This document shows positions 25,934 through 52,499 of a DNA stretch of 64,000 nucleotides, in pieces. Origin of the DNA: Sneathiella marina (lineage in GTDB: Bacteria; Pseudomonadota; Alphaproteobacteria; Sneathiellales; Sneathiellaceae); NCBI RefSeq assembly GCF_023746535.1, contig NZ_CP098747.1, forward strand, positions 2,874,501 to 2,938,500, given 5' to 3'. The first letter of the stretch is position 1. Each line of letters starts with the position of its first letter. The translations under genes and the position numbers were made by a program. A model generated the notes under the pieces. That model did no database searches, was not told the origin of the DNA, and saw only the letters and a program-made list of their open reading frames with translations.

Positions 25934-25962
25934 CTGACAACACCTATGTTTCTATGTATAAC
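25934..25962 (+). promoter_or_regulatory. promoter of the radical SAM/SDR genes
   Basis: CTGACA (25934-25939) and TATAAC (25957-25962) with a 17-base spacer. The predicted start near 25969 lies after the first in-frame ATG of the next gene (25946), which supports the ATG at 26012 as the real start. Confidence 0.6.
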
Positions 25963-26011
25963 AATACCAGAAATAAGGAATTCGTTCGCGGCGAGAAATT
26001 TAAAATTAATT

Positions 26012-32444: not shown

Positions 32445-33032
32445 CTAATTATTAGAAGGAGCGGCTTTCGTGGCCAACCACTGCATTACATAATGCATGA
32501 CAACGAGTTGAGTGTCTTCAGATATCTGCATGTCGTCGATAGGGAAATGCATGGAGTGCGCCGCCAGTGATTTTGCTTTACCACCATCAAACCCCAAAAT
32601 TGCATATGTTTCAAGGTCATGCTCGTTAGCGAAATCAAGAGCCCGCAGAATATTCGGTGAATTACCACTGCCCGACAGGACAAGCAGAACATCGCCAGGA
32701 TTGGAATAGACGGCAAGCTGCTTTGCAAATATTTCCTCATAACCTTCGTCGTTTGCGAGGCAAGTGATGATAGAGCTATTAGCTGGCAAGGCGTGCGCCC
32801 GAAGGCCTTTTCCGGATTTTCTATCTATCCCATAAATCATGTCATTGGCAATATGGACTGCATTTCCGGCGCTGCCCCCGTTACCACACAAAAAAAACTG
32901 GCGACCATTCTCCCAGGCATTCAGCAGACTTTCGCACAGTTTATTGATGACTGTTTCATCTACTGCGGACAGCGCCTTGTTTAAGCGCTCGCTGTAGCTC
33001 GAAAAAGATAAGTTCATTTTTTCCACATTCAT
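32445..33032 (-). CDS. SIS-domain sugar-phosphate isomerase, GmhA-like
   Basis: A SIS-domain protein of 195 residues from MNVEKMNLSFSSYSERLNK. This start lies 10 bases after the upstream epimerase stop; the open frame continues 26 codons upstream inside that gene and is rejected. The phosphosugar loop CGNGGSAGNAVHIANDM and GSGNSPN match GmhA-like phosphoheptose isomerases, which convert sedoheptulose 7-phosphate to heptose 7-phosphate. The catalytic Glu-Glu of GmhA (HFAEEL) appears as Asn-Asp (HIANDM), so activity may differ. The C-terminal histidine is kept (QLVVMHYV). Confidence 0.78.
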   Translation of the reverse strand: MNVEKMNLSFSSYSERLNKALSAVDETVINKLCESLLNAWENGRQFFLCGNGGSAGNAVHIANDMIYGIDRKSGKGLRAHALPANSSIITCLANDEGYEEIFAKQLAVYSNPGDVLLVLSGSGNSPNILRALDFANEHDLETYAILGFDGGKAKSLAAHSMHFPIDDMQISEDTQLVVMHYVMQWLATKAAPSNN

Positions 33033-33042
33033 CTTAAGCAGC

Positions 33043-33984
33043 TCAGGCGCTTTTGGCCATATTTTCCATCCAACGCAAATTATACCAACGATCCTCATCA
33101 CGAAGGTCACGGCGTTGATAGGAAGCGATCACTTCGGTAATGGCATCATCAACAGATTTCTCCGGTTTGAATCCAGCCGCTAGAATGCGATCAGAGTTAA
33201 CCCGATAGGAGCGCGGATCATTTGAGGGAGTGACTTCAATTTCGCACGGGATCTTCGCCGCAATCCGCTCTGCGATCTCAACAATCTTCAAATTTTCAAA
33301 CCCGGCATTGTAAACCCCTGTAACATTCGGATTATCTAGCAGAAAAATGTAAAGTCGAGCGATGTCGTCAATATGGATATTCGGGCGAACCTGCTGGCCA
33401 CCAAATACAGTAATTTTACCGTTGGTAATTGCTTGCATGGTCAGCATATTGACGGACACATCCAACCGCATGCGCGGCGACACGCCACAAACAGTTGCCG
33501 GACGCACAATTTGTACACACATTTGATCTGCATAACTCAGCAGAACACGTTCCGCGACCATTTTTGTTTTATTGTATTCCGAAATTGGCAGCAGTTCCAA
33601 ATCTTCCGTGACCTGCTCTTCTTCCTTAATGCCATAAACGCTTCCGGATGAAGCATAGATGAACCGTTTGATGCCCGCTCGAGCGGCATTGTCCGCAAGC
33701 TGCATCGTCGCCAACGCGCTAATTTCCCACGTCAGCTTTGGATCAAGATCCCCACATGGATCATTTGCAACAGAGGCCAGATGAATGATGGCGTCAATAC
33801 CGTTGAGTAAGCTGGTATCAAAAAAGCGGACGTCGCCCTGAACAACCGTCAAATTCTCATGCTCGGGAAGGAATTGTCCAAACCACTGAATGTCGTAGGC
33901 AACCACTGTATGGCCTGTCTCAAGAAGTTTCGGAACCAACACAGAACCCTTGTACCCACAAGCCCCAGTTACAAGCAAACGCAT
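33043..33984 (-). CDS. NAD-dependent epimerase/dehydratase
   Basis: An extended SDR of 313 residues that acts on nucleotide sugars. The NAD motif TGACGYKG is at residues 6-13, SSGSVYG provides the Ser, and the catalytic Tyr and Lys are in YNKTK. The C-terminal half binds the nucleotide sugar (RPNIHIDDIARLY). It is the first gene of a minus-strand operon: epimerase, SIS isomerase, GT2, membrane protein. The exact sugar is not predictable. Confidence 0.85.
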   Translation of the reverse strand: MRLLVTGACGYKGSVLVPKLLETGHTVVAYDIQWFGQFLPEHENLTVVQGDVRFFDTSLLNGIDAIIHLASVANDPCGDLDPKLTWEISALATMQLADNAARAGIKRFIYASSGSVYGIKEEEQVTEDLELLPISEYNKTKMVAERVLLSYADQMCVQIVRPATVCGVSPRMRLDVSVNMLTMQAITNGKITVFGGQQVRPNIHIDDIARLYIFLLDNPNVTGVYNAGFENLKIVEIAERIAAKIPCEIEVTPSNDPRSYRVNSDRILAAGFKPEKSVDDAITEVIASYQRRDLRDEDRWYNLRWMENMAKSA

Positions 33985-34187: not shown

Positions 34188-35036
34188 TTGACTTCTCCGA
34201 AGACAGTTTTTATTGCGGCAATTTCCAGCGATATTGGCCGAAAGCTAGCTGAATTATATCTCGCCGAGGGCTTCCGTATCGTCGGCACTTATCGTGAGGA
34301 AGCACATGTAACTCTCTTCAAAAATCACGATAAAATATTACTTCTAAAATGCGATTTGAACCAGCAAGATGATCTCGCCAAAGTTCCAGCCTTTATGGCA
34401 GAAAACAATATCGAGTGGGACCATTTTATTTCTGCGGTTGGCCTCCTTAGTCCTATTGGTAAATTCACCGACTTACCGGCAGGAAACTGGAAAGCGTCCG
34501 TCACCGTAAATTCGCTGCAGCAGCTCGAATTGTTCCATTCAATATACCCCTTCAAGCGCAATGGAACGACGGGCAAGGCTGCGTTCCTTGTGGGTGGCGC
34601 CATAAATCGTCCCTTTGCCAACTATTCAGCTTATTCTCTCGGCAAAATCATGCTGGTTAAATTTTGCGAACTTATCAGTGACGAAACGCCGGACCTGCAT
34701 TGCGTGGCAATTGGAACAGGCTGGGTCGCCAGCAAAATCCATCAGCAGACTTTGGACGCAGGGCAGTCCGCAGGCGACAATCTAACGTCCACTAAAGAAT
34801 TTGTTTCTTCCGGGGAACAGGGTACAAGAATTGAAGATATATTTTCCCTGATCAATTGGTGTTTCGACAGACCGGAAACTGCAGGTAGGAACTTTTCCGT
34901 CGTGCATGATGATTGGCGGGATGGTGGCGATAAGCTGTATTTTTCACTTGCCCATGATGAAGATAAGTTCAGGCTGCGGCGACATGGCAACCAGCATAAA
35001 AACAGCGAAACTAGAGAAGCGAAACCCAATTCATGA
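34188..35036 (+). CDS. SDR-like oxidoreductase with degenerate cofactor motif
   Basis: A 282-residue SDR relative that starts at a TTG (MTSPKTVF) after GAGAAAAGG. The usual TGxxxGIG is replaced by AAISSDIG near the N-terminus, while Y149-K153 (YSLGK) remains. This suggests altered cofactor binding or a different nucleotide preference. It ends four bases into the TPP-enzyme gene (ATGA overlap), so the two are translationally coupled and may act in sequence. A 203-base divergent region separates it from the epimerase. Confidence 0.7.
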   Translation: MTSPKTVFIAAISSDIGRKLAELYLAEGFRIVGTYREEAHVTLFKNHDKILLLKCDLNQQDDLAKVPAFMAENNIEWDHFISAVGLLSPIGKFTDLPAGNWKASVTVNSLQQLELFHSIYPFKRNGTTGKAAFLVGGAINRPFANYSAYSLGKIMLVKFCELISDETPDLHCVAIGTGWVASKIHQQTLDAGQSAGDNLTSTKEFVSSGEQGTRIEDIFSLINWCFDRPETAGRNFSVVHDDWRDGGDKLYFSLAHDEDKFRLRRHGNQHKNSETREAKPNS

Positions 35037-36802
35037 AACTGTCGTCCTATGTAATTAGCTTTTTAGCCGAAAAGGGTGTCGACCGGGTTTTCGGTATGTC
35101 AGGTGGGGCTGCAGTTCATTTGCTCGACTCTGTCTCAAAATATGATGGAATTGAATTTATTTGTTCCCAGCATGAACAGAGCGCGGCAATTTCCGCAGAT
35201 GGATATGCGCGAACAACAGGTCGACTTGGCGTTGCCATTACTACAAGTGGTCCGGGTGCAACTAACTTGCTGACCGGAACATGCTGCTCCTTCTACGATA
35301 GCGTGCCAACATTGATGCTAACGGGACAGGTTGCTTCACATCGGCTGAAAGGTGATTTGGATATCCGCCAACGCGGATTTCAGGAAACCGATGTTGTTTC
35401 CATTTTCGATAGTGTCACAAAATATGCTGCCCGTCTCGAGAAGCCGGAAGATGTCCGATACTGCCTCGAAAAAGCGTATCATTTGGCTTTTGAAGGACGC
35501 CCGGGGACTGTATTGGTGGACATTCCGGATGATTTTCAACGAGCCGAGATCGACCCTGATACACTTCGAGGATTTACAGCGGAAACAAAACAAAAGGATG
35601 TGCTGGCTCCCAAGATTGCGGCTGTGGCAGAGGCTCTTTTTGCCGCCAAGCGTCCAGCAGTAGTTCTCGGAGGCGGGCTCAAGACTCCGGACTGCGGTTT
35701 TGATATTCCCTCCCTTGTTACTGCTCTCGGGGCTCCGGTTGTCACAAGCTGGGCGGCGGTGGACCTCCTGCCTCATGATCATGCGCTAAATATGGGAAGT
35801 TTCGGCGTCTATGCGCCGCGTATGGGAAATTATGTAGTTCAAAATGCCGATTTTCTGCTTTGCCTCGGCACGCGACTGTCCCAGAATCTCACCGGAGGCA
35901 TTTTATCTTCCTTTGCCCGAGAAGCAGAAATCGCCATGATCGATATCAGTTCCGGTGAAATGGAAAAATTTGATGGCTTTGGTATTGAGGTGACGCATCG
36001 TATTGAATCCCGGCTGGAAGACGCCCTTCCCCTGCTAAAGGACCAAGCGGATACCGTTGTCAGGCAAGGCAATAAAGAATGGCAAGCAACTATTGAAAAA
36101 TGGAAACACCATTTCGGTCAGGAAAATTTTGATCCTGATGATCAGGAAGGGTGCATTAACGCCTATTCGTTTATTGAGCAACTGTCGCAGTTCGTACCTG
36201 CCGGAGAGACAATTTTAGCTGACACAGGTGGCAATCTAACCTGGACATGCAATGCCTTTCGTTTCAAGCCAGAACAACGCTTGCATTCCGCCTGGAACAA
36301 TACGCCTATGGGATACTCTCTGCCGGCGGCTATTGGCGCTGCAGCTGCCGAACCTGAAAAGAACTTCACCTGCCTGATCGGTGACGGCGGGCTAATGATC
36401 TGCCTGCCAGAGCTGGCGACTGTTGTGAAGCATAATATGAAAATCAAAATATTCCTGTTTAACAATCACGGACATGGCATCCAGAAACAAACATTGGAAA
36501 CGTGGCTGGATGCCAATTATGTCGGCGTACATGAACCTTCTGGATTGGCGTTTACGGACTTCCCGTCGGTTGCCGTATCCATGGGACTAAAAACTTTCAC
36601 TTTGGACAATAAAGATCGGCTGCAGGACGACCTGGAAGAAGTTTTCGCTGTAGAAGGCCCGGTTTTTGTTAATGTGGAAATTAATCCCGGTCAACGGCTT
36701 TTCCCTGTCCTTAAGTTTGGCGCCGCCCTTGAAAATCAGCTTCCAGCACTTGAGGCGGAATTTATTGAAGAACAGATGGTCATTCCACCTTTTTCCATGT
36801 AG
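35033..36802 (+). CDS. thiamine pyrophosphate enzyme, acetolactate synthase-like
   Basis: A 589-residue TPP enzyme with the three-domain layout of acetolactate synthase and pyruvate decarboxylases. The activating glutamate is E48 in QHEQSAA. SGPGATN follows. The TPP-magnesium motif begins GDGGLM at residue 450 and ends NN near 477-478. It is in a sugar gene cluster, without an ilvN partner, so a role in attaching a two-carbon unit to a keto sugar, as in yersiniose synthesis by YerE, is plausible but inferred. It may instead be a plain decarboxylase or ligase. Confidence 0.8.
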   Translation: MKLSSYVISFLAEKGVDRVFGMSGGAAVHLLDSVSKYDGIEFICSQHEQSAAISADGYARTTGRLGVAITTSGPGATNLLTGTCCSFYDSVPTLMLTGQVASHRLKGDLDIRQRGFQETDVVSIFDSVTKYAARLEKPEDVRYCLEKAYHLAFEGRPGTVLVDIPDDFQRAEIDPDTLRGFTAETKQKDVLAPKIAAVAEALFAAKRPAVVLGGGLKTPDCGFDIPSLVTALGAPVVTSWAAVDLLPHDHALNMGSFGVYAPRMGNYVVQNADFLLCLGTRLSQNLTGGILSSFAREAEIAMIDISSGEMEKFDGFGIEVTHRIESRLEDALPLLKDQADTVVRQGNKEWQATIEKWKHHFGQENFDPDDQEGCINAYSFIEQLSQFVPAGETILADTGGNLTWTCNAFRFKPEQRLHSAWNNTPMGYSLPAAIGAAAAEPEKNFTCLIGDGGLMICLPELATVVKHNMKIKIFLFNNHGHGIQKQTLETWLDANYVGVHEPSGLAFTDFPSVAVSMGLKTFTLDNKDRLQDDLEEVFAVEGPVFVNVEINPGQRLFPVLKFGAALENQLPALEAEFIEEQMVIPPFSM

Positions 36803-39757: not shown

Positions 39758-40804
39758 TTAGAAAGGACCCGTAAACCAATTCCCCGGCACATCATGCGGA
39801 CCCCGCAGCTTTAATATGGGCTCAACTGAAATATCTTTACCCAACATACTACCCACCCGTTCTGCAATATGTTCAGCCCTTATGTGATAGTCCTTCGTCA
39901 GAGCGGGACTGGTCGATTCCGAGTAATCCGGCGCTGTTAATCTCACTGGAGGTGCCGTAAGATCTGCCCAGCATCGTTCGGTGATCCGCGCGACAACCTC
40001 ACCGGCAAATCCATTCGTTTTAAATCCGGTGTCCAACATCATCAATTTTCCTGTCTTCTTCACCGATGCCTCTATTTTTCCCCAATCAATGGGCGACACG
40101 GTTCTCAAATCAATCAAGTCGCAGGAAATCCCCTGGTCTTGCAGAACGTCAACAGCATGCAGGGCTTCAATGGTCATGTAGGAGACGGAAACGATGGTTA
40201 CAGCATCCCCGCTCCGCAACAGATTCGCCTCTCCCAGCGGAATTAACTTGCCTGTTTCCGGCTCATCGGTTTGGGCATTGTGCAGCCACCGGTGTTCGAG
40301 AAAAATCACCGGATTAGGGTCGAATATGCTGGACAGAAGCAAACCTTTTGCATCCGAGGCAAGAGCAGGCATCACTACTTTTAATCCAGGAATATGGGCG
40401 AACCAGGATTGCAGATTTTGCGAATGTGTAGGCCCCTGCCCCCAACCTCGGCCGAGGATCATACGAACCGTAATTGGTACATTACGCTGCCCACCAAACA
40501 TGAAATGCCATTTCGCGGCGTTATTCACCAGTTGATCCATGGAGAGTAATGCAAAATCAAGCCGCTGATGGGTAAGCACTGGCTTGAAACCTCCAAGTGC
40601 CGCTCCTATGGCGATACCGGTCATGGCATTTTCCGCGGTGGGCATATCAAAAACCCGTTTTTCTCCATATTTTTCCTGAAGATCAAGCGTGGTCCCGAAC
40701 ACCCCTTTGGGATCTGGAACGCCAAGGCCGAAAACCAGAACGCTCGGATCATTTTCTAACGCCTGATCAAGTCCTGATCGAATTTCACTGGCAAAGTTTC
40801 TCAT
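39758..40804 (-). CDS. TPP-dependent dehydrogenase/transketolase-like E1 beta subunit
   Basis: A 348-residue protein like the beta subunit of 2-oxoacid dehydrogenase E1. The motif TAENAMTGIAIGAALGG replaces the usual SEAGFxGxAxGAA, followed by conserved stretches such as GRGWGQGPTHSQNLQSWFAH. Its start overlaps the E1 alpha stop by four bases. No E2 or E3 gene is nearby, so it probably does not form a classical oxoacid dehydrogenase complex. Confidence 0.82.
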   Translation of the reverse strand: MRNFASEIRSGLDQALENDPSVLVFGLGVPDPKGVFGTTLDLQEKYGEKRVFDMPTAENAMTGIAIGAALGGFKPVLTHQRLDFALLSMDQLVNNAAKWHFMFGGQRNVPITVRMILGRGWGQGPTHSQNLQSWFAHIPGLKVVMPALASDAKGLLLSSIFDPNPVIFLEHRWLHNAQTDEPETGKLIPLGEANLLRSGDAVTIVSVSYMTIEALHAVDVLQDQGISCDLIDLRTVSPIDWGKIEASVKKTGKLMMLDTGFKTNGFAGEVVARITERCWADLTAPPVRLTAPDYSESTSPALTKDYHIRAEHIAERVGSMLGKDISVEPILKLRGPHDVPGNWFTGPF

Positions 40805-41808
40805 TTCAGGAAAATGCCCTCTTCGGCTGCGGTTGCAAAAACATGCATCGACGCTTCTTCAAGGCTCGGAAAATCGGATGCCCGCGCAAATTCAAAAGCA
40901 GCCGCGACTTCTGTATCAATTTCCGACTGCACCGCATCAATATCCGCCTCCGTAAACAAAGCAGAAGTGATCGCTTGTTGTTCAAAATTTGCTATGGGGT
41001 CGCGGCCATTCCACTCTTCAATAAACTGATCCGGGCGATAGCCGAGGTCGTCATCATAATTCGGGCCGCAATGTTCCCGCCATCTAAATGTTTCAAACTC
41101 CAAAAAGGCCGGACCCTTTCCGGATCGTATATGATTGACAGCCTTTGACATTTTCTGATGAACTGAAACGACGTCATTGCCATCTCCTTCATCTGTATAA
41201 ACGCCGAATCCCGCTACTTTTTCATGGATTTTTTTGACAGCGGATTGACGGACGGATAACGGGGAATAGACAGAATAAAAGTTATTCTCACAGACGAATA
41301 AAACCGGTAGATTTTTAAGGGCCGCAAAACTCAGGGATTCAAAGAAAACACCGGTTTCGACAACGGCGTCCCCAAGGAATACACACGTAATATCATCACT
41401 ACCCTTAAGCATTAGACTATAAGCCAGCCCCACACCGACAGGCACCGTGCCGCCTACAATTGCAGTAGATCCCATAAAGCCGGCTTTTTCATCAATCAAA
41501 TGCATCGAGCCGCCCTTACCCCGGGCACAGCCCGTAACGCGCCCATATATCTCCGCAATCATGGCATTTAAATCGCCACCTTTCGCAAGATAATGAGCGT
41601 GAGCCCGGTGGCCGCTAACCGCCAGGTCTGTATTTCGCAAAATGGTTCCAATGGCCGCAGACACCGCTTCCTGACCTGAAGAAAGATGGGTTGGACAACG
41701 CATTTCCTGTTCTGAATAACGAGTTGCGATATGCTCCTCCACGCTACGAATTCGCCGCATACCGCGCGACAGGTCGAGTGCAAACTCAGATGTTATGGAA
41801 TAAACCAA
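40801..41808 (-). CDS. TPP-dependent dehydrogenase E1 alpha subunit
   Basis: A 335-residue protein like the alpha subunit of pyruvate/acetoin dehydrogenase E1. The TPP-magnesium motif runs from GDAVVETGVFFE to ENN, with GDA in place of GDG. ARGKGGSMHL precedes it, which is typical of the family. It overlaps the methyltransferase gene upstream by 16 bases and the beta subunit downstream by four bases. As a pair without E2 it could catalyse a two-carbon transfer or decarboxylation on a sugar or other small molecule. Confidence 0.85.
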   Translation of the reverse strand: MVYSITSEFALDLSRGMRRIRSVEEHIATRYSEQEMRCPTHLSSGQEAVSAAIGTILRNTDLAVSGHRAHAHYLAKGGDLNAMIAEIYGRVTGCARGKGGSMHLIDEKAGFMGSTAIVGGTVPVGVGLAYSLMLKGSDDITCVFLGDAVVETGVFFESLSFAALKNLPVLFVCENNFYSVYSPLSVRQSAVKKIHEKVAGFGVYTDEGDGNDVVSVHQKMSKAVNHIRSGKGPAFLEFETFRWREHCGPNYDDDLGYRPDQFIEEWNGRDPIANFEQQAITSALFTEADIDAVQSEIDTEVAAAFEFARASDFPSLEEASMHVFATAAEEGIFLK

Positions 41809-42452
41809 TAATAGTCCCCCGTATAACCTACTTCCTTAAAGAAGCTTACCCACTCTTCGACATGAAGGATTGTCTTGGCAGTCAAGTTCCACGCCTGCAT
41901 TCTTTCATATTCCTCGTCGGTCCGATAGGCATCAACTGTTATAAAGGATTGCCCTCGAGATACACGCTCTATTTCCTGCAAAGCTTTTCCACAAGCGGAT
42001 TGTTCCAGATTGTGGACCGTATTAACGGATATGACGACATCAAAGCTGTCGTCATCAAAAGGAAGATCCTGAGCATCGGCAACCGAAACATAGTCACGGA
42101 CTGTCTCCATTGAGTTGGCAATCGCATAGTCTGAAATATCAATCCCTCGGACGGTAATTCCGGGAACAAGTTCCCGAAGATCATGCAACATAAATCCTTT
42201 GGCGCTTCCGACATCCAGAAGGCTTGTGTTTGATGTTAGACCGAAATGACTTTGAAAAGTCGGAATTACCGGTTGCCAAAATCTTGGAAAATATGAAAAT
42301 CCGCCATACCCATGTCGGCGGTCACCATCGAAAAAATCCTCTCCGAACTGACGGGCAACGGCGCGGTCTTCTTCAGTCTTTTCATTTCCTCGCTGCGTCA
42401 GATCACGTTTGGTTTTCGGATAATTGACGAGCAGATCGATTTCCTGTCCCAT
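41793..42452 (-). CDS. class I SAM-dependent methyltransferase
   Basis: A 219-residue methyltransferase. The SAM motif I is LLDVGSAKGFMLHDL; later GIDISDYAIANS and FDVVISVNTVHNL match motifs II-IV of the class. It is in a run of sugar genes and its 3' end overlaps the E1 alpha gene by 16 bases. The methyl acceptor is unknown; a sugar hydroxyl or C-methylation is plausible. Confidence 0.8.
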   Translation of the reverse strand: MGQEIDLLVNYPKTKRDLTQRGNEKTEEDRAVARQFGEDFFDGDRRHGYGGFSYFPRFWQPVIPTFQSHFGLTSNTSLLDVGSAKGFMLHDLRELVPGITVRGIDISDYAIANSMETVRDYVSVADAQDLPFDDDSFDVVISVNTVHNLEQSACGKALQEIERVSRGQSFITVDAYRTDEEYERMQAWNLTAKTILHVEEWVSFFKEVGYTGDYYWFIP

Positions 42453-42486: not shown

Positions 42487-43479
42487 TTATGGCTTGTGAA
42501 TGTAAGATTGTGGTTGTGTCTGCAAATCGTCTAGATTGGACTTTACCCAGTCAATTGTTTGATCGATACCCTGGTCAAGCGAAATACTGTCAGACCAGTC
42601 CAAAGTTTCCCGCAACTTGGTATCGTTGAGACTATAAGTCTGATCCTTCCCCTGGCGCTCACCGACGACTTCGATCAGATCGTCTGGATCCAGCCCCATG
42701 CACCCGCTGATTTTTTCCACAAGATTACGGATACTGATCAATTTTGGTGTCGAAATATGATAACAATCGCCCACAGTTCCATTGAGAGCAATTTTCACAG
42801 TGGCGGCCGAAACATCTTCGATATGGATGAAGGATCGCTCTGAATGGCCGCCCCCATGTAACTGCAATTTCTGACCGGTCAGCCCGTAAAGAATTGTTCG
42901 GGGGATAATACGGTAAAGTTGCTGCCCGGGACCATACACATTAGCTGCTCGGGTAAATACAACAGGGAAATCATAGGCCCTGAAATAACTCATAAGGCTC
43001 ATATCACCAGCCGCCCGGGACACCGCGTAGGGAGTGCTGGGGTTAAACGGATGATTTTCATCAACGAAACCTGAGGTATTCCCGTAAACCTCCGGCGTGG
43101 ATATATGGATATATTTTTCCAGAAAGGGAAGTTTGCGAAGTTCTTCATGGAGAAGTACCGTCGACAGCGTGTTTGTCTGGAACCAGTCTCCTGGATTATC
43201 CCAGCTTTCCCCGACCATGCTTTGTGAGGCGAAATTGACTATGTAATCAATCTTTTCACTGACAATAAGATCAATGATTTTTTTTAAGTCGTCATTGATA
43301 TCCAGCTGATGAAAGGAAAACTGCTCCTGATTGCTTCCCCACTTGTAAGGTAGAAACGCATCATGTGGCTCCGAAGATCGGCTACCTCCAAAGACTTCAT
43401 ATCCTGCCTGCAGGAGATGCGCGCAAAAACTGGCGCCGGAAAAGGAATTACTCCCGAGAACTAAAAACTTTTTCGACAT
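42487..43479 (-). CDS. nucleotide-sugar dehydratase/epimerase-like SDR
   Basis: An extended SDR of 330 residues from MSKKFLVLGSNSFSG (another ATG six bases upstream is possible). It looks like GDP-mannose or dTDP-glucose 4,6-dehydratases. STPEVYG provides the Thr and Glu of that family, and the C-terminal half has RSFIHIEDVSAA. The catalytic YxxxK is YAVSR, an Arg in place of Lys, so catalysis may be changed. It lies between the methyltransferase and the nucleotidyltransferase genes. Confidence 0.78.
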   Translation of the reverse strand: MSKKFLVLGSNSFSGASFCAHLLQAGYEVFGGSRSSEPHDAFLPYKWGSNQEQFSFHQLDINDDLKKIIDLIVSEKIDYIVNFASQSMVGESWDNPGDWFQTNTLSTVLLHEELRKLPFLEKYIHISTPEVYGNTSGFVDENHPFNPSTPYAVSRAAGDMSLMSYFRAYDFPVVFTRAANVYGPGQQLYRIIPRTILYGLTGQKLQLHGGGHSERSFIHIEDVSAATVKIALNGTVGDCYHISTPKLISIRNLVEKISGCMGLDPDDLIEVVGERQGKDQTYSLNDTKLRETLDWSDSISLDQGIDQTIDWVKSNLDDLQTQPQSYIHKP

Positions 43480-43574
43480 ATTCATTCCGTTCAGCAACAG
43501 CTAGCGCGACTTTTAATATTCTTACAGGCCATCCAATACAATGTCGACGCCTCAGCGTCTATCCCTTATGAGAA

Positions 43575-44417
43575 TTATGACCGCATGAGGCTCTCAATTG
43601 CACGAGATGAAAGCCCTGCTTGGCCCAGCTTAAGTAGAAAATCATGAGATAATTCCTGCCTGCTCTTGTCTGGGCGCCAATAGCTCCCGACTTCCTCCAA
43701 TAGTGTCATTCCCATCTCGCAAGCCACAATTTCCTCCTGCGCGTCTCCAATAGCAACGACGGTACCAATATCCCGGTGATAATGCTGATTGTGAAAACTG
43801 TTCATGCGCCCGACAAAATTCGGTAAAATTTCTGTACTAAAATCGGTTATATGCTCGCCTGCATCCAGGATCTTGAACACCTCATTCACGTCCATTAAAT
43901 AAACAGCGCCGTTTGCCAATGTGCCTACAAAATCCTGTGGCTTTTCAACAAACTCAATGACGCACCCCTCCTCATTCAAGGTGACTATCCCACAACTTTT
44001 CGGATCGTCCGTATCGAACGTCATCATTGTCATCGCGCAAGGAGCCGGTCTTGTTTCAAAAGCTTCGTAAAACTGTTGCACGTCAAAGATTGTCAGATTA
44101 TCAGCATGGGCCATCAAAAGCTCGTTGCTCGAAAACTCCTCCCGAAAATGACCAAGTGTACCGGCTGTTCCCAATAATGCAGGCTCATCCAGAAATTTGA
44201 CGATATCCGTGTAGGGGCTGGATAATACATATTCACGGACAAGCGGTGACAAATAGTGAAGATTAATGAAAACCCGGTCTACACCGCCCTGTCTCAGCAT
44301 TTCCAACCAGAGACCGAGAAGTGGACGACCATGAATTGGCATCAGGCATTTTGGAAGGACTGTGGTTAGGGGCTGAAGTCGTGTCCCCAATCCGGCCGCA
44401 AGCAATAACGCCTCCAT
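43575..44417 (-). CDS. sugar-1-phosphate nucleotidyltransferase, HddC/ManC-like
   Basis: A nucleotidyltransferase of 280 residues from MEALLLAAGLGTRLQPLTTV, which carries the GxGTRLxP motif and the PK further on. The start at 44417 lies 10 bases after the upstream gene's stop; an in-frame ATG at 44483 falls inside that gene. HYHRDIGTVVAIGDA resembles the D-I-G-T end of mannose-1-phosphate guanylyltransferases and of HddC, which makes GDP-heptose. Whether it uses GTP, CTP or dTTP cannot be read. Context favours a heptose or related sugar. Confidence 0.8.
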   Translation of the reverse strand: MEALLLAAGLGTRLQPLTTVLPKCLMPIHGRPLLGLWLEMLRQGGVDRVFINLHYLSPLVREYVLSSPYTDIVKFLDEPALLGTAGTLGHFREEFSSNELLMAHADNLTIFDVQQFYEAFETRPAPCAMTMMTFDTDDPKSCGIVTLNEEGCVIEFVEKPQDFVGTLANGAVYLMDVNEVFKILDAGEHITDFSTEILPNFVGRMNSFHNQHYHRDIGTVVAIGDAQEEIVACEMGMTLLEEVGSYWRPDKSRQELSHDFLLKLGQAGLSSRAIESLMRS

Positions 44418-44427
44418 AACGCGTCTC

Positions 44428-45921
44428 CTACCAGATATCCAGCTCATGACGAATACTATCGACACTGAGGGGGCGATTTCCAACGGTTGCTACCTGGCAG
44501 CCCGAAGCCACGGAACCGATATAGGCAGCTTCCCAGATTGTGGCGCCCGCAGCAAGCGCAAGGGAAGCCGTTACCAGCATTGCATCTCCCGCACCGGCAG
44601 GATCTTTTGGCGCATCACAAAAGGCAGGAAGCCGGTCCGTCATCCATTCGCTCTTACCAGGATGCAAGGTCTGGATCAAAGTGCCTTCAGCCCCGAGCGT
44701 GAGAAGAATATGAGACGGGTTACATTTTCTTGCCAGTTTTTCCGCGACACCCACAAGCCCGATATCATGATCCTGAATAGCCAGGCGCGCTTCAATTTCA
44801 GTTGGCTTTAGCAATAACATATCGTGAAAGCGGGAGATATTACCGATCTGTGACGAAGACTGGCTATCGGCAACCATTAAAATGCCTTTCTCCTGGCAGA
44901 GAGAAATCATCCTGTCCACCAGCGACTGCGGCAAAACGCCGTAATTAAAGTCCGAGAATATGACAAGATTAAGCCTATCAGTCTGCTCCTTGAAAAGTTC
45001 AAAGATTTCATCCTGAAGTGTTTCATCAATGGCATGCTGCTTCAGCTTCGAGACCCTAAGGAGGGTTTTGCCGGATGATCTGAATCGTTGTTTCAACGTT
45101 GTCGGCCTGCTTGCATCTCTTGCGATTTTGGCATTGACCCCGTATTCTTCAAATTTCCCAATGCTATCCGTCGCCTCCTGGTCATCCCCACAAACCGTCA
45201 AGTAGGTAGTGTTCGCGCCGAGACCGCTAGCGTGACTGGCAACGATACCAGCCCCACCGATAAATTTTTGCTCCAGAACCGGTGTGACGACAACCGTAGG
45301 GTCTTCTCGAGACAGTCCCAGCACATCGCAAGTAATATATTCGTCGACGATCAGGTCTCCGACTACCAGCACATTCATCTCGTAAAATCGGTCCAGAATG
45401 TCGGTGAAATTTTCAGAACTGATTTGATGCCTGTTAAGATAGTTGTGCGATGTGTTCAAATTGAACAGAGATTTATTGGGATCGCTTTCCGCCCGAATAA
45501 GATCAATAGAGGAAAAGACGGCGTCACCTGAACTGAACAGAAGTTTTCCGCCATATTTCGAGAGAGCTTCAGTTTCTGGATTATGAAGATCCTGATGCTC
45601 TTTACCCTTGATAACAAGTTCAGGGCGGATCAAATCAATTGCTGAAGGCAAGTCTTCGTCCAATAAAAAGGCATAGTCTACGTAGCTAATGGCGACGATA
45701 TTCTCTAACCTCAACTCGGCGGGAACCAGAACTCCAGGCCTTCGGTCTGTATTTACGGTAACGACCAGATAGTCACAGCAATCCGCCGCAAATTTTAACA
45801 AGCGCAAATGCCCGGGATGGACAACATTAAAATTCCCGCTCACCATGCCGATTTTAAAGGATTCGTCCTTATCACTGCGTAGCGCTTCGATCCGAGCTGC
45901 ATGTTCCGTCAAGGTCATCAA
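44428..45921 (-). CDS. bifunctional heptose nucleotidyltransferase-kinase, reversed domain order
   Basis: A 497-residue fusion. Residues 22-150 form a cytidylyltransferase-type domain with GNFNVVHPGHLRLL (His35 and His38), like the C-terminal half of HldE. Residues 170-497 form a PfkB/ribokinase domain ending in DPAGAGDAML, with Asp446 as the likely base, like the N-terminal half of HldE. E. coli HldE has kinase first, so the order is swapped here. Both active sites look intact. It probably phosphorylates and nucleotidylates a heptose or similar sugar. It abuts the upstream alcohol dehydrogenase gene. Confidence 0.8.
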   Translation of the reverse strand: MMTLTEHAARIEALRSDKDESFKIGMVSGNFNVVHPGHLRLLKFAADCCDYLVVTVNTDRRPGVLVPAELRLENIVAISYVDYAFLLDEDLPSAIDLIRPELVIKGKEHQDLHNPETEALSKYGGKLLFSSGDAVFSSIDLIRAESDPNKSLFNLNTSHNYLNRHQISSENFTDILDRFYEMNVLVVGDLIVDEYITCDVLGLSREDPTVVVTPVLEQKFIGGAGIVASHASGLGANTTYLTVCGDDQEATDSIGKFEEYGVNAKIARDASRPTTLKQRFRSSGKTLLRVSKLKQHAIDETLQDEIFELFKEQTDRLNLVIFSDFNYGVLPQSLVDRMISLCQEKGILMVADSQSSSQIGNISRFHDMLLLKPTEIEARLAIQDHDIGLVGVAEKLARKCNPSHILLTLGAEGTLIQTLHPGKSEWMTDRLPAFCDAPKDPAGAGDAMLVTASLALAAGATIWEAAYIGSVASGCQVATVGNRPLSVDSIRHELDIW

Positions 45922-46974
45922 TTATTTTCCATTAAGTGCAGGATTTATTTCAATTAAAGGTCGCATTACCACACCGGCTTCCAGATCATCAAGAGCCTCG
46001 TTAATGGATTCGAGATCATATCTTTTCGTAATCATACTTTCCAAAGGTAAAGTATTCTGAACGGACATCTTGTAGAATTTTAACAGGTCTTCGTCTGGCT
46101 TAGTATCCCCGCCCCAGCTGCCCTTGATGTTTTTTCCGTTTACCAACTCAAACGGGTCAAGCGAAATCATCTGACCGGCTTCAGGATGAGAAGCAAAGAC
46201 ACACTGGCCGCCCTTACGCCTTGTTGCCTCAAAGGCAAGTTCGATAGTTGATGTTCGCCCAGCCGCATCAATACAAAAATCGGCACCTTGCCCATTTGTT
46301 AAGGCCAAAATCTGCTCAACTACATCATTTCGAGACCCGTCGATTACATGTGAAGCGCCCAGCGCCGTTGCGACTTTCAGCTTTTCTGACCGAACGTCGA
46401 CAGCAATTAGTTTTTGGGGGTTACGGCATTTTGCGTACATGAGCGATATAGCACCAATTCCCCCAACTCCGATAATGACGACAGAATGGTGAGACTCGAT
46501 TTCAATCTCATTTAGCACCATCCCCGCTCCAGTTGGAACCGCACAACCAAACAGAACACCAAGATCCATAGGCAGTCCAACAGGCAGCTTAGTCAGTCGG
46601 TTTTCGGATACAATTGTTCGTTCGCTAAATGTCGTAATTCCGCCTGAATTTATTGCTGTGCCATTCCAATCATAGATAGCCCCCGGCACATCCATGCCGT
46701 CGCCTTTTATCCAGCCGAGGATGACCTTGTCCCCCGGCATAACCTTACTAACATTATCTCCAACCGCCCTGACAACACCTGTTGCCTCGTGACCAAGCAT
46801 ATGAGGTAGGAACCTGTCTTCACCTCGCCTCCCACGAACCTCCATAAGCTGGCTATGGCAAACACCACTATATGCTATCTCAACCTCAACCTGCCCGGGA
46901 AGAAGTCGGGGTAATTTGATGTTATCAAGAATGCAGAGAGGCTTATTGATTTTGAAAAGAACAGCTGCTTTCAT
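45922..46974 (-). CDS. medium-chain alcohol dehydrogenase-like oxidoreductase
   Basis: A zinc-type MDR of 350 residues from MKAAVLFKINKPLC. The catalytic zinc ligands C39 and H62 (with E63) are present, and a third near FGCAVPTGAG. The nucleotide motif is GVGGIGAISL. The lobe that normally carries four cysteines for structural zinc is replaced by LGWIKGDGMDVPGAIYDWNG, which has none. This suggests a structural-zinc-free subtype. It is the first gene of the long minus-strand sugar operon. The substrate may be a sugar alcohol or keto sugar. Confidence 0.8.
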   Translation of the reverse strand: MKAAVLFKINKPLCILDNIKLPRLLPGQVEVEIAYSGVCHSQLMEVRGRRGEDRFLPHMLGHEATGVVRAVGDNVSKVMPGDKVILGWIKGDGMDVPGAIYDWNGTAINSGGITTFSERTIVSENRLTKLPVGLPMDLGVLFGCAVPTGAGMVLNEIEIESHHSVVIIGVGGIGAISLMYAKCRNPQKLIAVDVRSEKLKVATALGASHVIDGSRNDVVEQILALTNGQGADFCIDAAGRTSTIELAFEATRRKGGQCVFASHPEAGQMISLDPFELVNGKNIKGSWGGDTKPDEDLLKFYKMSVQNTLPLESMITKRYDLESINEALDDLEAGVVMRPLIEINPALNGK

Positions 46975-47316
46975 TCCGGTAATCACTTATCCTTGGCGTC
47001 ATATGGTTCACGAGATCTAAATAAAAATGGCGCAACAACATAGCAGCAAGATCCACCATGTTAATGCAAAAAAATATAAGCCGAGGTTATTATTTATAGA
47101 CGGGGTTCGTTTGGCAAATATAATAATTTCTTGGATTTTCGTGAAATCGATGGACGGGCTGAATAAGTTGGCTAATCATATCTGTGCCCCGAATCTGGCA
47201 CAATTACCCACAAAAACAGCTATAACCCCTGAGTATCAATGATATTCAATTCCTTAAAACTCCTTATTCTCTTTATTGTTGAGGCACCTCACCTATCCTG
47301 ACCAATCAGTTTCATA

Positions 47317-49084: not shown

Positions 49085-50023
49085 TTGGATATTATTGTTT
49101 TAGGTGCCGCTGCAGGCGGCGGTTTTCCACAATGGAACTGTAACTGTTCCGTCTGTGCAATGGCCCGTCAATTTCCCGACAAAGCCGTACCCAGAACCCA
49201 GTCTTCCCTTGCGATCAATATTGATGGTACTGGACAAAAATGGGTACTGCTCAATGCCTCTCCAGATTTGAGGCAGCAAATAAACGAAAACAGACAGCTT
49301 TGGCCTGACACGACAAGCAGCCGAGGAACAGGCATCGCAGGTACGATTTTAACGAACGGTGATGTGGATCATATTTGCGGATTGGTAAATTTGCGCGAAA
49401 GTCAGAAATTAAACCTATACGCTACACAGCGAATACTGACAGCATTGTCCAATAATACGGTATTTGATGTATTGAATCCGAAATTTGTCGAGCGTCACAA
49501 GATCATGCTGGATGAAGCCTTCATGCCACTTGACCCCGATGGGGGCGAAACAAATATTTCCATTCTTCCCTTTGCAGTACCTGGTAAAGTCGCGCTCTAT
49601 CTAGAAGATGAAAAGTCAGGTGATAATTTTGGAAGTCGGCCTGAAGATACAATTGGACTTGAAATACGATCTCTGTCAACAAATCGAAAGTTCTTTTATG
49701 TTCCAGGCTGCGCCGCGATGACACCAGACCTTGCCAATCGTCTACGAGATGCCGAACTTGTGTTCTTTGACGGCACTCTTTGGCGAGATGAGGAAATGAT
49801 AGACGCTGGTGTCGGCATAAAAACTGGAAAACGTATGGGCCATATGAGTATGTCTGGCTCGGAAGGGTCGCTGGCCGCCTTTGCCAATCTGAACATAAAG
49901 AGAAAAATATTTGTTCATATCAACAACACCAACCCGGTTCTGATTGAAAATTCGGACGAGAGACGAGAAGCCGAAACTGCAGGCTGGGAAATTAGTTTCG
50001 ACGGAATGGAAATAAAAATATGA
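49085..50023 (+). CDS. pqqB: PQQ biosynthesis protein PqqB
   Basis: PqqB, 312 residues, a metallo-beta-lactamase-fold protein that acts on the tyrosine of the PqqA-derived precursor. It opens with IIVLGAAAGGGFPQWNCNCS, the family signature, with the metal-binding stretch NGDVDHICGL. The start is a TTG at 49085. It overlaps pqqC by four bases. All features are normal for the family. Confidence 0.95.
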   Translation: MDIIVLGAAAGGGFPQWNCNCSVCAMARQFPDKAVPRTQSSLAINIDGTGQKWVLLNASPDLRQQINENRQLWPDTTSSRGTGIAGTILTNGDVDHICGLVNLRESQKLNLYATQRILTALSNNTVFDVLNPKFVERHKIMLDEAFMPLDPDGGETNISILPFAVPGKVALYLEDEKSGDNFGSRPEDTIGLEIRSLSTNRKFFYVPGCAAMTPDLANRLRDAELVFFDGTLWRDEEMIDAGVGIKTGKRMGHMSMSGSEGSLAAFANLNIKRKIFVHINNTNPVLIENSDERREAETAGWEISFDGMEIKI

Positions 50024-50781
50024 GTGGAGCATCGGCGGCGACAACTAAAATTACTGAAGCGTTGAGCGCCGACGACCTGGAAGCACGTCTGTACGAAATT
50101 GGGGCGGAGCGTTATCATAATTTACACCCTTTTCACGAACTCCTGCATACAGGTGCTTTAAGTCGCGGACAGGTGCAAGCCTGGGCCCTCAACCGATATT
50201 GCTATCAGGCCGCCATCCCGATGAAAGATGCCTCCCTCATGGGTCGTATTGAGGATCGAGAATTACGGAAACAATGGCTGCACCGCGTGACTGACCATGA
50301 CGGATACGATGAGGACGAGGGCGGTATTATGCGTTGGCTTATTTTGACGGATGGGCTCGGTCTTGATCGGGAGTATGTCATTTCTCGCGAAGGCGCCCTG
50401 CCTGCTGTCCGTTTTGCTGTTGAGGCCTATATACGATACGTTCGCGAACAGCCATTGCTACAGGCGATTGCCTCTTCCCTGACTGAATTATTCGCACCGA
50501 AAATCCATCGCGACCGGATTGCAGGCATGCTCAAAAATTATGATTTCATCGATGATAAACTAATGAGTTATGGAACGCGGCGCCTCAATCAGGCACCTGT
50601 TGACGCGGAATTCGCTTTGAAATATGTACGACAAAATGCTGTACGGGCAGATCAGCAACAGCAAGTCGTCGACGCCCTGCTTTTCAAATTAAACGTACTT
50701 TGGATCCAGCTTGATGCCCTCCATCTGGCCTATGTCGAACCCAAATTGATCCCTCCCGGAGCATTCCAGCCCGAGGAGTAG
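50020..50781 (+). CDS. pqqC: pyrroloquinoline-quinone synthase PqqC
   Basis: PqqC, 253 residues, catalyses the last ring closure and eight-electron oxidation to PQQ without a metal. The sequence YHNLHPFHELLHTGALSRGQ and ALNRYCYQAAIPMKDASLM match the family active-site helices. It overlaps pqqB by four bases (ATGA). Length and order B-C are typical. Confidence 0.96.
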   Translation: MSGASAATTKITEALSADDLEARLYEIGAERYHNLHPFHELLHTGALSRGQVQAWALNRYCYQAAIPMKDASLMGRIEDRELRKQWLHRVTDHDGYDEDEGGIMRWLILTDGLGLDREYVISREGALPAVRFAVEAYIRYVREQPLLQAIASSLTELFAPKIHRDRIAGMLKNYDFIDDKLMSYGTRRLNQAPVDAEFALKYVRQNAVRADQQQQVVDALLFKLNVLWIQLDALHLAYVEPKLIPPGAFQPEE

Positions 50782-50928
50782 CCCAAAAGGACAAATACTA
50801 AATAATGCTTATTCGCAGTTCCGAAGGAAAAACAAGATTTCAACAGAGCTAATATCATTGTTGATTAATGTAAGATTTGCGCTTAGGGTTGAGACACCAT
50901 AGTAAAATAAAAGATTTGGGAGATAAAA

Positions 50929-51006
50929 ATGAGCTGGAATAAACCCAAAATTGTTGAGATTGCCGTTGGCATGGAAATCAATTGTTACGCTTGCGCTGAA
51001 GACTAA
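50929..51006 (+). CDS. pqqA: PQQ precursor peptide PqqA
   Basis: A 25-residue peptide, MSWNKPKIVEIAVGMEINCY followed by ACAED, too short for ordinary gene finding. Glu16 and Tyr20 (E-I-N-C-Y) are the pair cross-linked by PqqE to form the PQQ backbone. A strong ribosome site GGGAGA precedes the ATG. It lies after pqqC instead of before pqqB and is followed by a hairpin (51041-51070). Two cysteines (C19 and C22) around Tyr20 are uncommon. Confidence 0.9.
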   Translation: MSWNKPKIVEIAVGMEINCYACAED

Positions 51007-51040
51007 TAAAACATTAGTGGAGACCGCGACTGATAGTGCG

Positions 51041-51072
51041 CGCTAGAAACAAGGTTTCTGGCGGGTTTTTCC
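51041..51072 (+). terminator. attenuator after pqqA
   Basis: CGCTAGAAAC pairs with GTTTCTGGCG over 10 bp (one T-G) across AAG, then GGTTTTTCC. It lies 35 bases after the pqqA stop. A hairpin at this place would leave more pqqA transcript than pqqDE transcript, as known for pqqA in other bacteria. Confidence 0.7.
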
Positions 51073-51087
51073 TGTGAGGTGATCAGA

Positions 51088-51369
51088 TTGAATTCTGCCG
51101 ATATTACCAATGACAGTTGCCCGAAACTCGCGGCAGGTGTCCGGCTGAAATTCGATGATACAAGAAAAAGCTGGATGATACTCGCTCCCGAGCGGGTATT
51201 TATGCTGGACGAAATTGCCGGAGAGATTTTATTGGGATGCGACGGCAAAAACTTTTCCGAGCTCATTGATTTTCTGCTTATCAAGTTTGACGCACCGAGA
51301 CCTGAGATCGAAGAGGACGTCAAGGAGGTTCTTGCCAATCTTGTTGTCAAAGGGGTGCTCGACATATGA
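51088..51369 (+). CDS. pqqD: PQQ biosynthesis chaperone PqqD
   Basis: PqqD, 93 residues, presents the PqqA peptide to PqqE. The pattern LAAGVRLKFDDTRKSWMILA and PERVFMLDEIAGEIL is typical. The start is taken as TTG at 51088, eight bases after GAGG; a GTG at 51079 would sit inside that ribosome site. The stop overlaps the pqqE start by four bases. Confidence 0.9.
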   Translation: MNSADITNDSCPKLAAGVRLKFDDTRKSWMILAPERVFMLDEIAGEILLGCDGKNFSELIDFLLIKFDAPRPEIEEDVKEVLANLVVKGVLDI

Positions 51370-52499
51370 TCAAGATTGATCCACCGCTCGCTCTATTGGC
51401 AGAACTGACCCATCGTTGCCCACTCAGCTGCCCATATTGCTCAAACCCCTTGGAAATGGATGCAAGAGCGGCCGAACTGGATACAGAATCCTGGTGTCGT
51501 GTCCTGACAGAAGCGAAAGAAATTGGGGCATTGCAAGTACATTTTTCAGGTGGTGAGCCTACCTTACGACCAGATCTGGTTGACCTAATCGAACATGCAG
51601 ACAAAATCGGTCTCTATTGTAATTTGATTACTGCCGCTGTGTCTTTGACCGAAAAACGGCTGGATAGTTTAAAAAACGCTGGTCTGGCGCATGTTCAGAT
51701 AAGCTTTCAGGGAACGGACACAGTAATTGCGGATCGGATCGCTGGATATGAGGGAGCGTTTGAACGCAAAACAAAAGCTGCCGCACGCGTTATCAATGCG
51801 GGTCTCGCCCTAACGCTAAACGCTGTGATAAATAGACATAATGTTGAGCAACTTCCGAATTTTTTTAAAATGGCGGCTCTTATGAAAGCCCGACGTCTGG
51901 AAGTAGCGCATGTTCAGTATTATGGTTGGGCTCTGAAAAACCGGGCAGCGCTTTTACCCAGCAAAACGCAGGTTGAGCGGACAACACAGCTGGTTGAAGA
52001 GGCACGCCGAAAATATGAGGGTACCATGGTGATCGATTATGTTGTTCCCGATTACTATGCTCGACGACCGAAAAGCTGCATGAACGGATGGGCCCGACGA
52101 TTTTTCAATATTACACCAGCTGGGAAAGTGTTGCCTTGTCACGCGGCGGAAACCATACCGCATTTGTCATTTCCAACAGTCCATGACGGCTCTCTATCTG
52201 ACATATGGCATAATGATCCTGCATTTAATGCTTATCGTGGTACAGACTGGATGCCGGAAACCTGCCAGAAATGCGATAACCGGGAAATTGACTGGGGCGG
52301 CTGTCGCTGTCAGGCAATGGCATTAACAGGTGACGCCGCGAATATGGATCCGGTTTGCGAACTATCTCCGTTTAAGGATAAAGTCCTGGAGGTTGCGAGA
52401 AACGATGCTGACGGGCAAGCTGCTGATTTCATTTATCGAGTATCACCTGGTTTTTCAGAACATAACGTTTCCGACAGCCCTGATAGAAAAACGGACTAA
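51366..52499 (+). CDS. pqqE: PqqA peptide cyclase, radical SAM PqqE
   Basis: PqqE, 377 residues, a radical SAM enzyme that links Glu and Tyr of PqqA. The SAM-cluster cysteines are C18, C22 and C25 in HRCPLSCPYC. The C-terminal SPASM region has CHAAETIP, then TCQKCDNREIDWGGCRCQA, then a late PVCEL, which supply the auxiliary iron-sulfur clusters. It overlaps pqqD by four bases. No pqqF-type protease is in the window. Confidence 0.96.
   Translation: MIKIDPPLALLAELTHRCPLSCPYCSNPLEMDARAAELDTESWCRVLTEAKEIGALQVHFSGGEPTLRPDLVDLIEHADKIGLYCNLITAAVSLTEKRLDSLKNAGLAHVQISFQGTDTVIADRIAGYEGAFERKTKAAARVINAGLALTLNAVINRHNVEQLPNFFKMAALMKARRLEVAHVQYYGWALKNRAALLPSKTQVERTTQLVEEARRKYEGTMVIDYVVPDYYARRPKSCMNGWARRFFNITPAGKVLPCHAAETIPHLSFPTVHDGSLSDIWHNDPAFNAYRGTDWMPETCQKCDNREIDWGGCRCQAMALTGDAANMDPVCELSPFKDKVLEVARNDADGQAADFIYRVSPGFSEHNVSDSPDRKTD

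Follow-up and report, generated by a model that had tools for sequence, protein, structure and literature searches.

Background

HldE (RfaE; models TIGR02198, TIGR02199 and PRK11316), an enzyme of core lipopolysaccharide (LPS) heptose synthesis, is the closest described relative of the protein reported here, which is encoded in a 64-kb stretch of the Sneathiella marina genome (contig NZ_CP098747.1, positions 2,874,501 to 2,938,500; this whole stretch is referred to as the window). Both proteins contain a nucleotidyltransferase (NT) domain and a PfkB kinase domain and share the HxGH, KG and GAGD motifs and the residues D22, K106 and E198 (E. coli HldE numbering). They differ in the order of the domains, which is reversed in the window protein, in scores that fall far under the equivalog cut-offs, in the replacement of R31, N55, K154, P178 and K179, and in their gene neighbours, and the reversed gene coexists with HldE.

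Other parts of the locus recall different systems. According to the available part of PMC4425429, two-carbon sugar branches are installed by the pyruvate dehydrogenase E1 (PDH-E1)-like pair AviB1/AviB2, with the same proposed for Pau11/Pau12, and by YerE in the case of yersiniose. When compared by family and by the description in that source, rather than by sequence alignment, the sugar cluster of the window contains a PDH-E1-like alpha/beta pair, as do the systems of AviB1/AviB2 and Pau11/Pau12, and the window also contains an acetolactate-synthase-like thiamine diphosphate (ThDP) enzyme. Lincosamide clusters encode a transaldolase (LmbR), an isomerase domain (LmbN), a phosphatase (LmbK) and a nucleotidyltransferase (LmbO), and the pathway proceeds via GDP-octose (PMC12945683, available part). 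Reversed loci of one subgroup (ii, defined below) resemble this pathway in having a transaldolase, a SIS isomerase, a kinase, a nucleotidyltransferase and, in 8 of 14 loci, a GmhB-like phosphatase. The lincosamide-pathway kinase, LmbP, belongs to a different family (GHMP), and the window cluster has neither transaldolase nor phosphatase. Homologues of the NCBI ‘sporadic carbohydrate cluster’ families TIGR04323 and TIGR04324, whose names carry no assigned product, adjoin 7 and 8 of 18 genes of subgroup iii, respectively (each representative over its cut-off); in the window, no match of at least 60 bits was obtained with profiles of the two clusters. By analogy, the module around the reversed gene appears to combine AviB/YerE-like and lincosamide-like elements with HldE-type activation.

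The reversed HldE-like family is widespread, has a coherent gene setting in the class of the source genome (Alphaproteobacteria, hereafter the class) and is apparently uncharacterised. In the open-licence literature searched, no title or abstract describing the reversed architecture and no function for it were found. Two annotated plasmid relatives are labelled only ‘PfkB family carbohydrate kinase’, a name that hides what appears to be a coherent family of sugar-activating enzymes together with its surrounding gene module.

Domain order and motifs

The reversed gene is a single open reading frame (ORF) in a genome of 4.07 Mb assembled as a single contig; its start codon is TTG, with an ATG one codon further in. 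When read in the same way, E. coli HldE (L069) and all 26 control hldE loci gave kinase followed by NT, whereas the window protein and the other reversed rows gave NT followed by kinase (Table 1), in agreement with the preliminary description of this DNA. The motif HPGH is located at residues 35-38, KG at 105-106 and GAGD at 443-446, the last being where it had been placed (near 446). An AlphaFold model of the protein, based on a three-row alignment, had a mean predicted local distance difference test score of 42.8 and was not used.

The window protein scored below the NCBIfam cut-offs for rfaE_dom_I (TIGR02198; 190.1 bits vs 345) and rfaE_dom_II (TIGR02199; 57.5 vs 181.5), and below that of the whole-protein model PRK11316 (147.1 vs 521). 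The HldE resident elsewhere in the genome, with which it shares 28-31% identity over the matching parts, passed the first two models (370.4 and 197.1 bits) and reached 505.6 bits on PRK11316, just under the cut-off. Because the resident enzyme narrowly fails that model, missing a cut-off is not by itself proof of another function; the shortfall of the window protein is large.

Residues R31, N55, K154, P178 and K179, which presumably bind the sugar as judged from the motifs in which they lie, were invariant in 24 canonical kinase rows and kept in none of 42 reversed proteins from the class. The canonical letters at the N55, K154 and DPK positions were likewise absent from all of 20 further reversed proteins from other classes. 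D22, K106, E198, the G, G and D of GAGD (G443, G445, D446) and the H, G and H of HxGH were kept in 42/42 reversed proteins, and A444 in 37/42, so that the catalytic PfkB and HxGH motifs expected of HldE are present. The T and N of the TNG motif were replaced in 42/42. In the NT domain of the window protein, the LKGxxRP motif of HldE is missing between D59 and R71, FN replaces FD, and SSI replaces STT. The earlier statement that both active sites look complete is thus accurate for the kinase catalytic motif, HxGH and KG, and fails for the canonical kinase invariants, LKGxxRP, FD and STT. On the basis of these differences, the window protein is probably not a second HldE.

Distribution and phylogeny

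Of 385 class genomes sampled in an even draw, at least 57 had the reversed order (match through both domains, counted by hand). Some match to the window protein was obtained in 215 of the 385, and many of the class matches listed covered only the kinase part, as is seen with canonical HldE; the reversed order is therefore frequent in the class but not its common form. In a draw from the phylum, 50 of 398 genomes scored at least 408 bits on a profile of the reversed family, the next score being 180 bits (hand count), and 42 of the 50 were from outside the class. The reversed form was found in 7 of 24 genomes of the genus sample, including the source genome, with several of the remaining genomes incomplete, and the gene also occurs on plasmids recorded for Azospirillum oryzae and Solidesulfovibrio carbinolicus.

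Maximum-likelihood trees of 66 kinase-domain rows and 63 NT-domain rows were constructed after 12 duplicate loci had been dropped. Since the proteins were gathered with the window protein as the query, the set may lack other reversed fusions. In both trees a single branch with 100/100 support parts the 42 reversed proteins from the canonical ones, and the same three subgroups (i, ii and iii, with 10, 14 and 18 loci) recur; root positions are not shown in either tree, and joins between the long branches flagged by the tree program (L045, L036 and others), including joins between subgroups, may be false. As judged from these trees, the reversed proteins are one old, widespread family set apart from canonical HldE. 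The independent fusion suggested at first is contradicted by this branch and by the occurrence of the family in many taxonomic families and in other classes.

In a phage collection, 15 records matched the window protein. Among the matches listed, one place covered at least 80% of the query; this was a two-piece match in a Salmonella record annotated RfaE, the domain order of which was not read. The sole record read for order, L078, had the canonical order, and a phage origin of the reversed gene is unsupported by these matches. In the kinase tree, the hldE of L078 (MT838225.1, ‘UNVERIFIED: Bacteriophage sp.’, 5.5 kb) falls very close to a copy from an Agrobacterium plasmid, and the record is probably bacterial DNA within the phage collection.

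Coexistence with core heptose genes

The source genome retains a canonical gmhA-hldE-hldD operon, as the preliminary description had suggested should be checked, with hldE at C1:20998-22398 flanked by a GmhA-like gene (181.2 bits, cut-off 209) and HldD (402.4 bits, cut-off 274.6). Since this operon lies elsewhere in the genome, the reversed gene comes on top of those for core LPS heptose synthesis. With regard to INDEPENDENCE from core heptose, a canonical HldE kinase over the cut-off was found in 17 of 22 reversed-bearing genomes, which were picked by hand and not drawn at random. It was lacking in G280, G394, G538, G506 (partial match at the end of a contig) and G553 (65% complete). Because three of these (G280, G394 and G538, estimated to be 94-99% complete) carry the reversed gene with neither HldE kinase nor HldD over the cut-offs, caution is needed in taking reversed HldE-like fusions as extra core-heptose enzymes.

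Gene module around the reversed gene

Neighbourhoods of the 42 class loci and the 26 control hldE loci were compared using profiles built from the reversed loci themselves, over stretches of about 20 kb (64 kb for the window, 21-31 kb for three others and 16.7-20 kb for four), although 5 of the 26 controls spanned only 10.8-13.5 kb. A two-subunit ThDP enzyme, either PDH-E1-like or a split transketolase, was detected at 37/42 reversed loci and at 0/26 canonical loci; by subgroup, the counts were 8/10 in i, seven rows of which are from one genus, 12/14 in ii and 17/18 in iii. When counted by family, with labels assigned by hand and three plasmid controls left out of the latter total, the pair was present in 23/28 reversed and 0/17 canonical families. 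A strict exclusion between E1-type and transketolase-type enzymes was considered and rejected: the alpha/N subunits of both types occurred together at none of the 42 class loci but at 2 of the 20 from outside the class.

Other genes recurred as well, namely homologues of the GmhA-like SIS isomerase (29/42 reversed loci vs 9/26 controls), the epimerase EPIM1 (32/42 vs 3/26) and the methyltransferase MT (25/42 vs 0/26). Subgroup ii was characterised by a transaldolase (13/14 loci; representative 328.7 bits, TIGR02134 cut-off 281.95), which was found at 0/10 subgroup-i loci, by a nucleotide-sugar dehydrogenase (13/14 vs 4/26 controls) and by a Gfo/Idh protein (13/14 vs 0/26). In subgroup iii, a protein of about 920 aa (L060 6240-9071 and seven further loci) recurs near the reversed gene; it partly resembles the LipL53 SBBP beta-propeller model (143.3 bits, cut-off 400).

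The gene module is strong within the class and partial beyond it, where 20 loci from 19 of 42 genomes were picked by hand for room on both sides. At L100, L114, L109 and L112, which are from other classes, no recognised sugar-cluster neighbours were located close to the reversed gene (one nucleotide-sugar dehydrogenase match in L114 lies at the stretch edge), and the role of the reversed genes at these loci may differ from that of the module.

In the window, the reversed gene belongs to an operon of sugar-nucleotide genes (Table 1) and is directly followed by a second nucleotidyltransferase, as had been described. The E1-alpha gene of the cluster is distinct from the 356-bit copy located outside it and is an extra one, because the genome has two other strong E1-type matches. 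The acetolactate-synthase-like enzyme and an FkbM methyltransferase adjoin the operon in same-genus loci, and by analogy a YerE-like role is possible for the former.

Table 1. Reversed gene, its domains and associated genes in the window
Feature	Position	Strand	Remarks
Reversed-order HldE-like protein, NT domain then PfkB kinase domain	44428..45921	-	Single 497-aa ORF
CTP_transf_like domain	45601..45843	-	Residues 27-107; Pfam 42.6 bits, cut-off 21
PfkB kinase domain	44476..45372	-	Residues 184-482; Pfam 73.8 bits, cut-off 25.8
Zinc alcohol dehydrogenase	45922..46986	-	Abuts start of reversed gene; detected in 9/10 subgroup-i loci
Sugar-1-phosphate nucleotidyltransferase, NTP_transferase family	43575..44483	-	Directly downstream of reversed gene
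NAD-dependent NDP-sugar dehydratase/epimerase, GDP_Man_Dehyd/RmlB-like	42487..43497	-	Under equivalog cut-offs
Class I S-adenosylmethionine (SAM) methyltransferase (MT)	41793..42452	-	
PDH-E1-alpha-like ThDP subunit	40801..41808	-	Divergent copy, 197 bits
E1-beta/transketolase-C-like ThDP subunit	39758..40804	-	
Flippase-like membrane protein TIGR00374	38725..39714	-	Adjoins operon in same-genus loci
Acetolactate-synthase-like enzyme (second ThDP enzyme)	35033..36802	+	Tie to operon positional only
NAD-dependent epimerase EPIM1	33043..33984	-	
GmhA-like SIS isomerase	32445..33110	-	116 bits, gmhA cut-off 209

Altered NT domain in subgroup i

The LKGxxRP motif was missing from all ten subgroup-i proteins, nine of which have a shorter loop and one (L036) a substitution, and FN stood for FD in all ten, while HxGH and the KG at residues 105-106 were retained throughout. 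The loop Lys of this motif was retained in 31 of 32 proteins of subgroups ii and iii. The NTP_transferase gene that adjoins the reversed gene in the window was present at 10/10 subgroup-i loci and, at a threshold of 60 bits, at 0/32 loci of the other two subgroups. L108, which is the one of the 20 loci from outside the class that is closest to subgroup i, is alone among them in having both the missing motif and the nucleotidyltransferase (NTase) gene, located 2.7 kb away. When these sets were pooled, the two features coincided at 11/11 subgroup-i loci, which scored 289-432 bits on the NTase profile at a loose threshold, and none of the 51 others reached 60 bits. A clean yes/no split between subgroups is softened by weaker relatives in L054, L102 and L103 (42-53 bits, 2.9-8.4 kb from the reversed gene), of which that in L054, a subgroup-ii locus, scored 42.5 bits at a distance of 8.4 kb with 39% identity by blastp; the control L097 scored 28 bits. 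From this pattern, the adjacent NTase has probably taken over nucleotidyl transfer in subgroup i.

A stronger form of this explanation is that the subgroup-i NT domain no longer transfers nucleotides at all, the protein acting in effect as a sugar kinase whose N-terminal domain has a structural or regulatory role and the downstream NTase performing the transfer. This alternative, which is compatible with the function proposed below, is given a chance somewhat short of even. It would account for the joint loss of LKGxxRP and FD beside a strong NTase gene at 11/11 loci and for the altered STT motif (SSI in the window). It is also consistent with Lys69 of BpHldC, which contacts the nucleotide phosphate (PMC7993394, available part) and, as read from the order of motifs, probably lies within LKGxxRP. 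The retention of HxGH and KG in 10/10 proteins argues the other way, as do the lower-scoring relatives of the NTase in L054, L102 and L103, and L117 and L118, where the motif is absent yet no NTase was detected. Decay of the domain under relaxed selection is unsupported, since the ratio of nonsynonymous to synonymous rates (omega) for the NT domain was 0.08-0.09 in the two comparisons with measurable synonymous divergence (L031 and L032); this divergence was saturated in the other two and throughout for the kinase domain. L117 and L118 (from genomes G506 and G500, which share a genus code and lie outside the class) have lost KG and the loop Lys, with no NTP_transferase detected nearby, and appear from their sequences to represent a separate, second instance of NT-domain alteration.

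Proposed function and alternatives

It is proposed that the reversed family activates, for a surface-glycan product, a sugar distinct from core LPS heptose and that the ThDP enzyme adds two carbons to it, a proposal regarded as having an even chance of being correct. On the best reading, the sugar is unusual, possibly C2-extended or branched, and surface-bound; the individual reactions and their sequence are all putative, as are the product and its surface location. The GmhA-like SIS enzyme would convert a ketose phosphate to an aldose phosphate, and the PfkB domain of the reversed protein would phosphorylate the anomeric carbon. In subgroups ii and iii, the N-terminal domain would carry out nucleotidyl transfer, which in subgroup i would probably fall to the adjacent NTP_transferase; after this step, NAD-dependent dehydratases/epimerases, the methyltransferase and a reductase would modify the NDP-sugar. 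The dedicated two-subunit ThDP enzyme would contribute a two-carbon unit, building the chain if it acts before activation and branching the sugar if it acts afterwards. For the window, the predicted sequence of steps starts with SIS isomerisation, after which the reversed protein would phosphorylate the anomeric carbon and the adjacent NTase would transfer the nucleotide; 4,6-dehydration or epimerisation would follow, and E1alpha/E1beta would then add the two-carbon unit ahead of reduction and methylation.

A broader and more tentative proposal, considered doubtful, is that reversed HldE proteins mark an undescribed route to activated higher-carbon sugars (octoses, or C2-branched heptoses or hexoses), with a skeleton built by a transketolase-like or PDH-E1-like enzyme, in some cases with a transaldolase, for surface glycans, in Pseudomonadota and on at least one Desulfovibrionaceae plasmid. 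If the module does build a carbon-extended or branched sugar, it would provide a genetic marker for such surface sugars and an enzyme set for making them.

Several observations weigh against the proposed function. The ThDP pair is missing from 5 of the 42 class loci. At the 20 loci from outside the class, the tie is weaker (ThDP pair 7/20, any subunit match 10/20, SIS 5/20), two of the subunit matches falling within ORFs of 687 and 701 aa, as long as a usual single-chain transketolase, and several reversed genes there have neighbours without an evident sugar link. The 7/20 count rules out universality of the module, and because the ThDP association weakens outside the class, the reversed family need not share one pathway. 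In the window itself, the cluster lacks a transaldolase and a GmhB-like phosphatase, the only TAL_FSA match and the only GmhB-model match (85.9 bits, sub-cut-off) of the genome being located elsewhere, and the GmhA-like isomerase, previously described as a neighbour of the reversed gene, is in the same region at a distance of 11.3 kb. The ThDP enzyme could act in the synthesis of another sugar by the same cluster, and the motif loss in subgroup i may signify only altered nucleotide binding in an NT domain that is still conserved.

A second manno-heptose pathway, in which D-glycero-D-manno-heptose 1-phosphate is made for O-antigen or capsule and the adjacent NTP_transferase forms GDP-heptose or another NDP-heptose, is considered unlikely. 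The closest solved structures are a heptose 7-phosphate kinase (4e84) and a putative cytidylyltransferase (5x9q), GmhA-like isomerases recur at reversed loci, GmhB-like phosphatases are more frequent in subgroup ii (8/14) than in controls (3/26), and the adjacent NTase matches the HddC model NF049965, all of which would fit such a pathway. However, the HddC match is 60.9 bits against a cut-off of 300, and the rfaE_dom_I (190/345), rfaE_dom_II (57.5/181.5) and gmhA (116/209) models are missed as well. In addition, residues invariant in canonical kinases are replaced, and the route from sedoheptulose 7-phosphate has no ThDP enzyme step in the available part of PMC10948575. The suggestion of a dedicated heptose-type sugar separate from core LPS heptose can therefore be retained in so far as the genes are extra to those for core heptose, while its heptose-type nature is not established, because five canonical-HldE invariants are replaced in 42/42 reversed proteins. 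Finally, the idea that the resident hldE underwent a domain swap recently and in this organism alone, for which no supporting point was found, is ruled out for practical purposes by the 100/100 branch in both domain trees and by the presence of reversed relatives in 57 or more of the 385 class genomes.

Additional features of the window

A B12-binding radical SAM protein is encoded at 25946-28033 (+), the best NCBIfam match being the KedN5 C-methyltransferase (152.8 bits, cut-off 700). At 49085-52499 (+), three ORFs resemble pqqB, pqqC and pqqE of pyrroloquinoline quinone (PQQ) biosynthesis, as judged by reading the translations alone.
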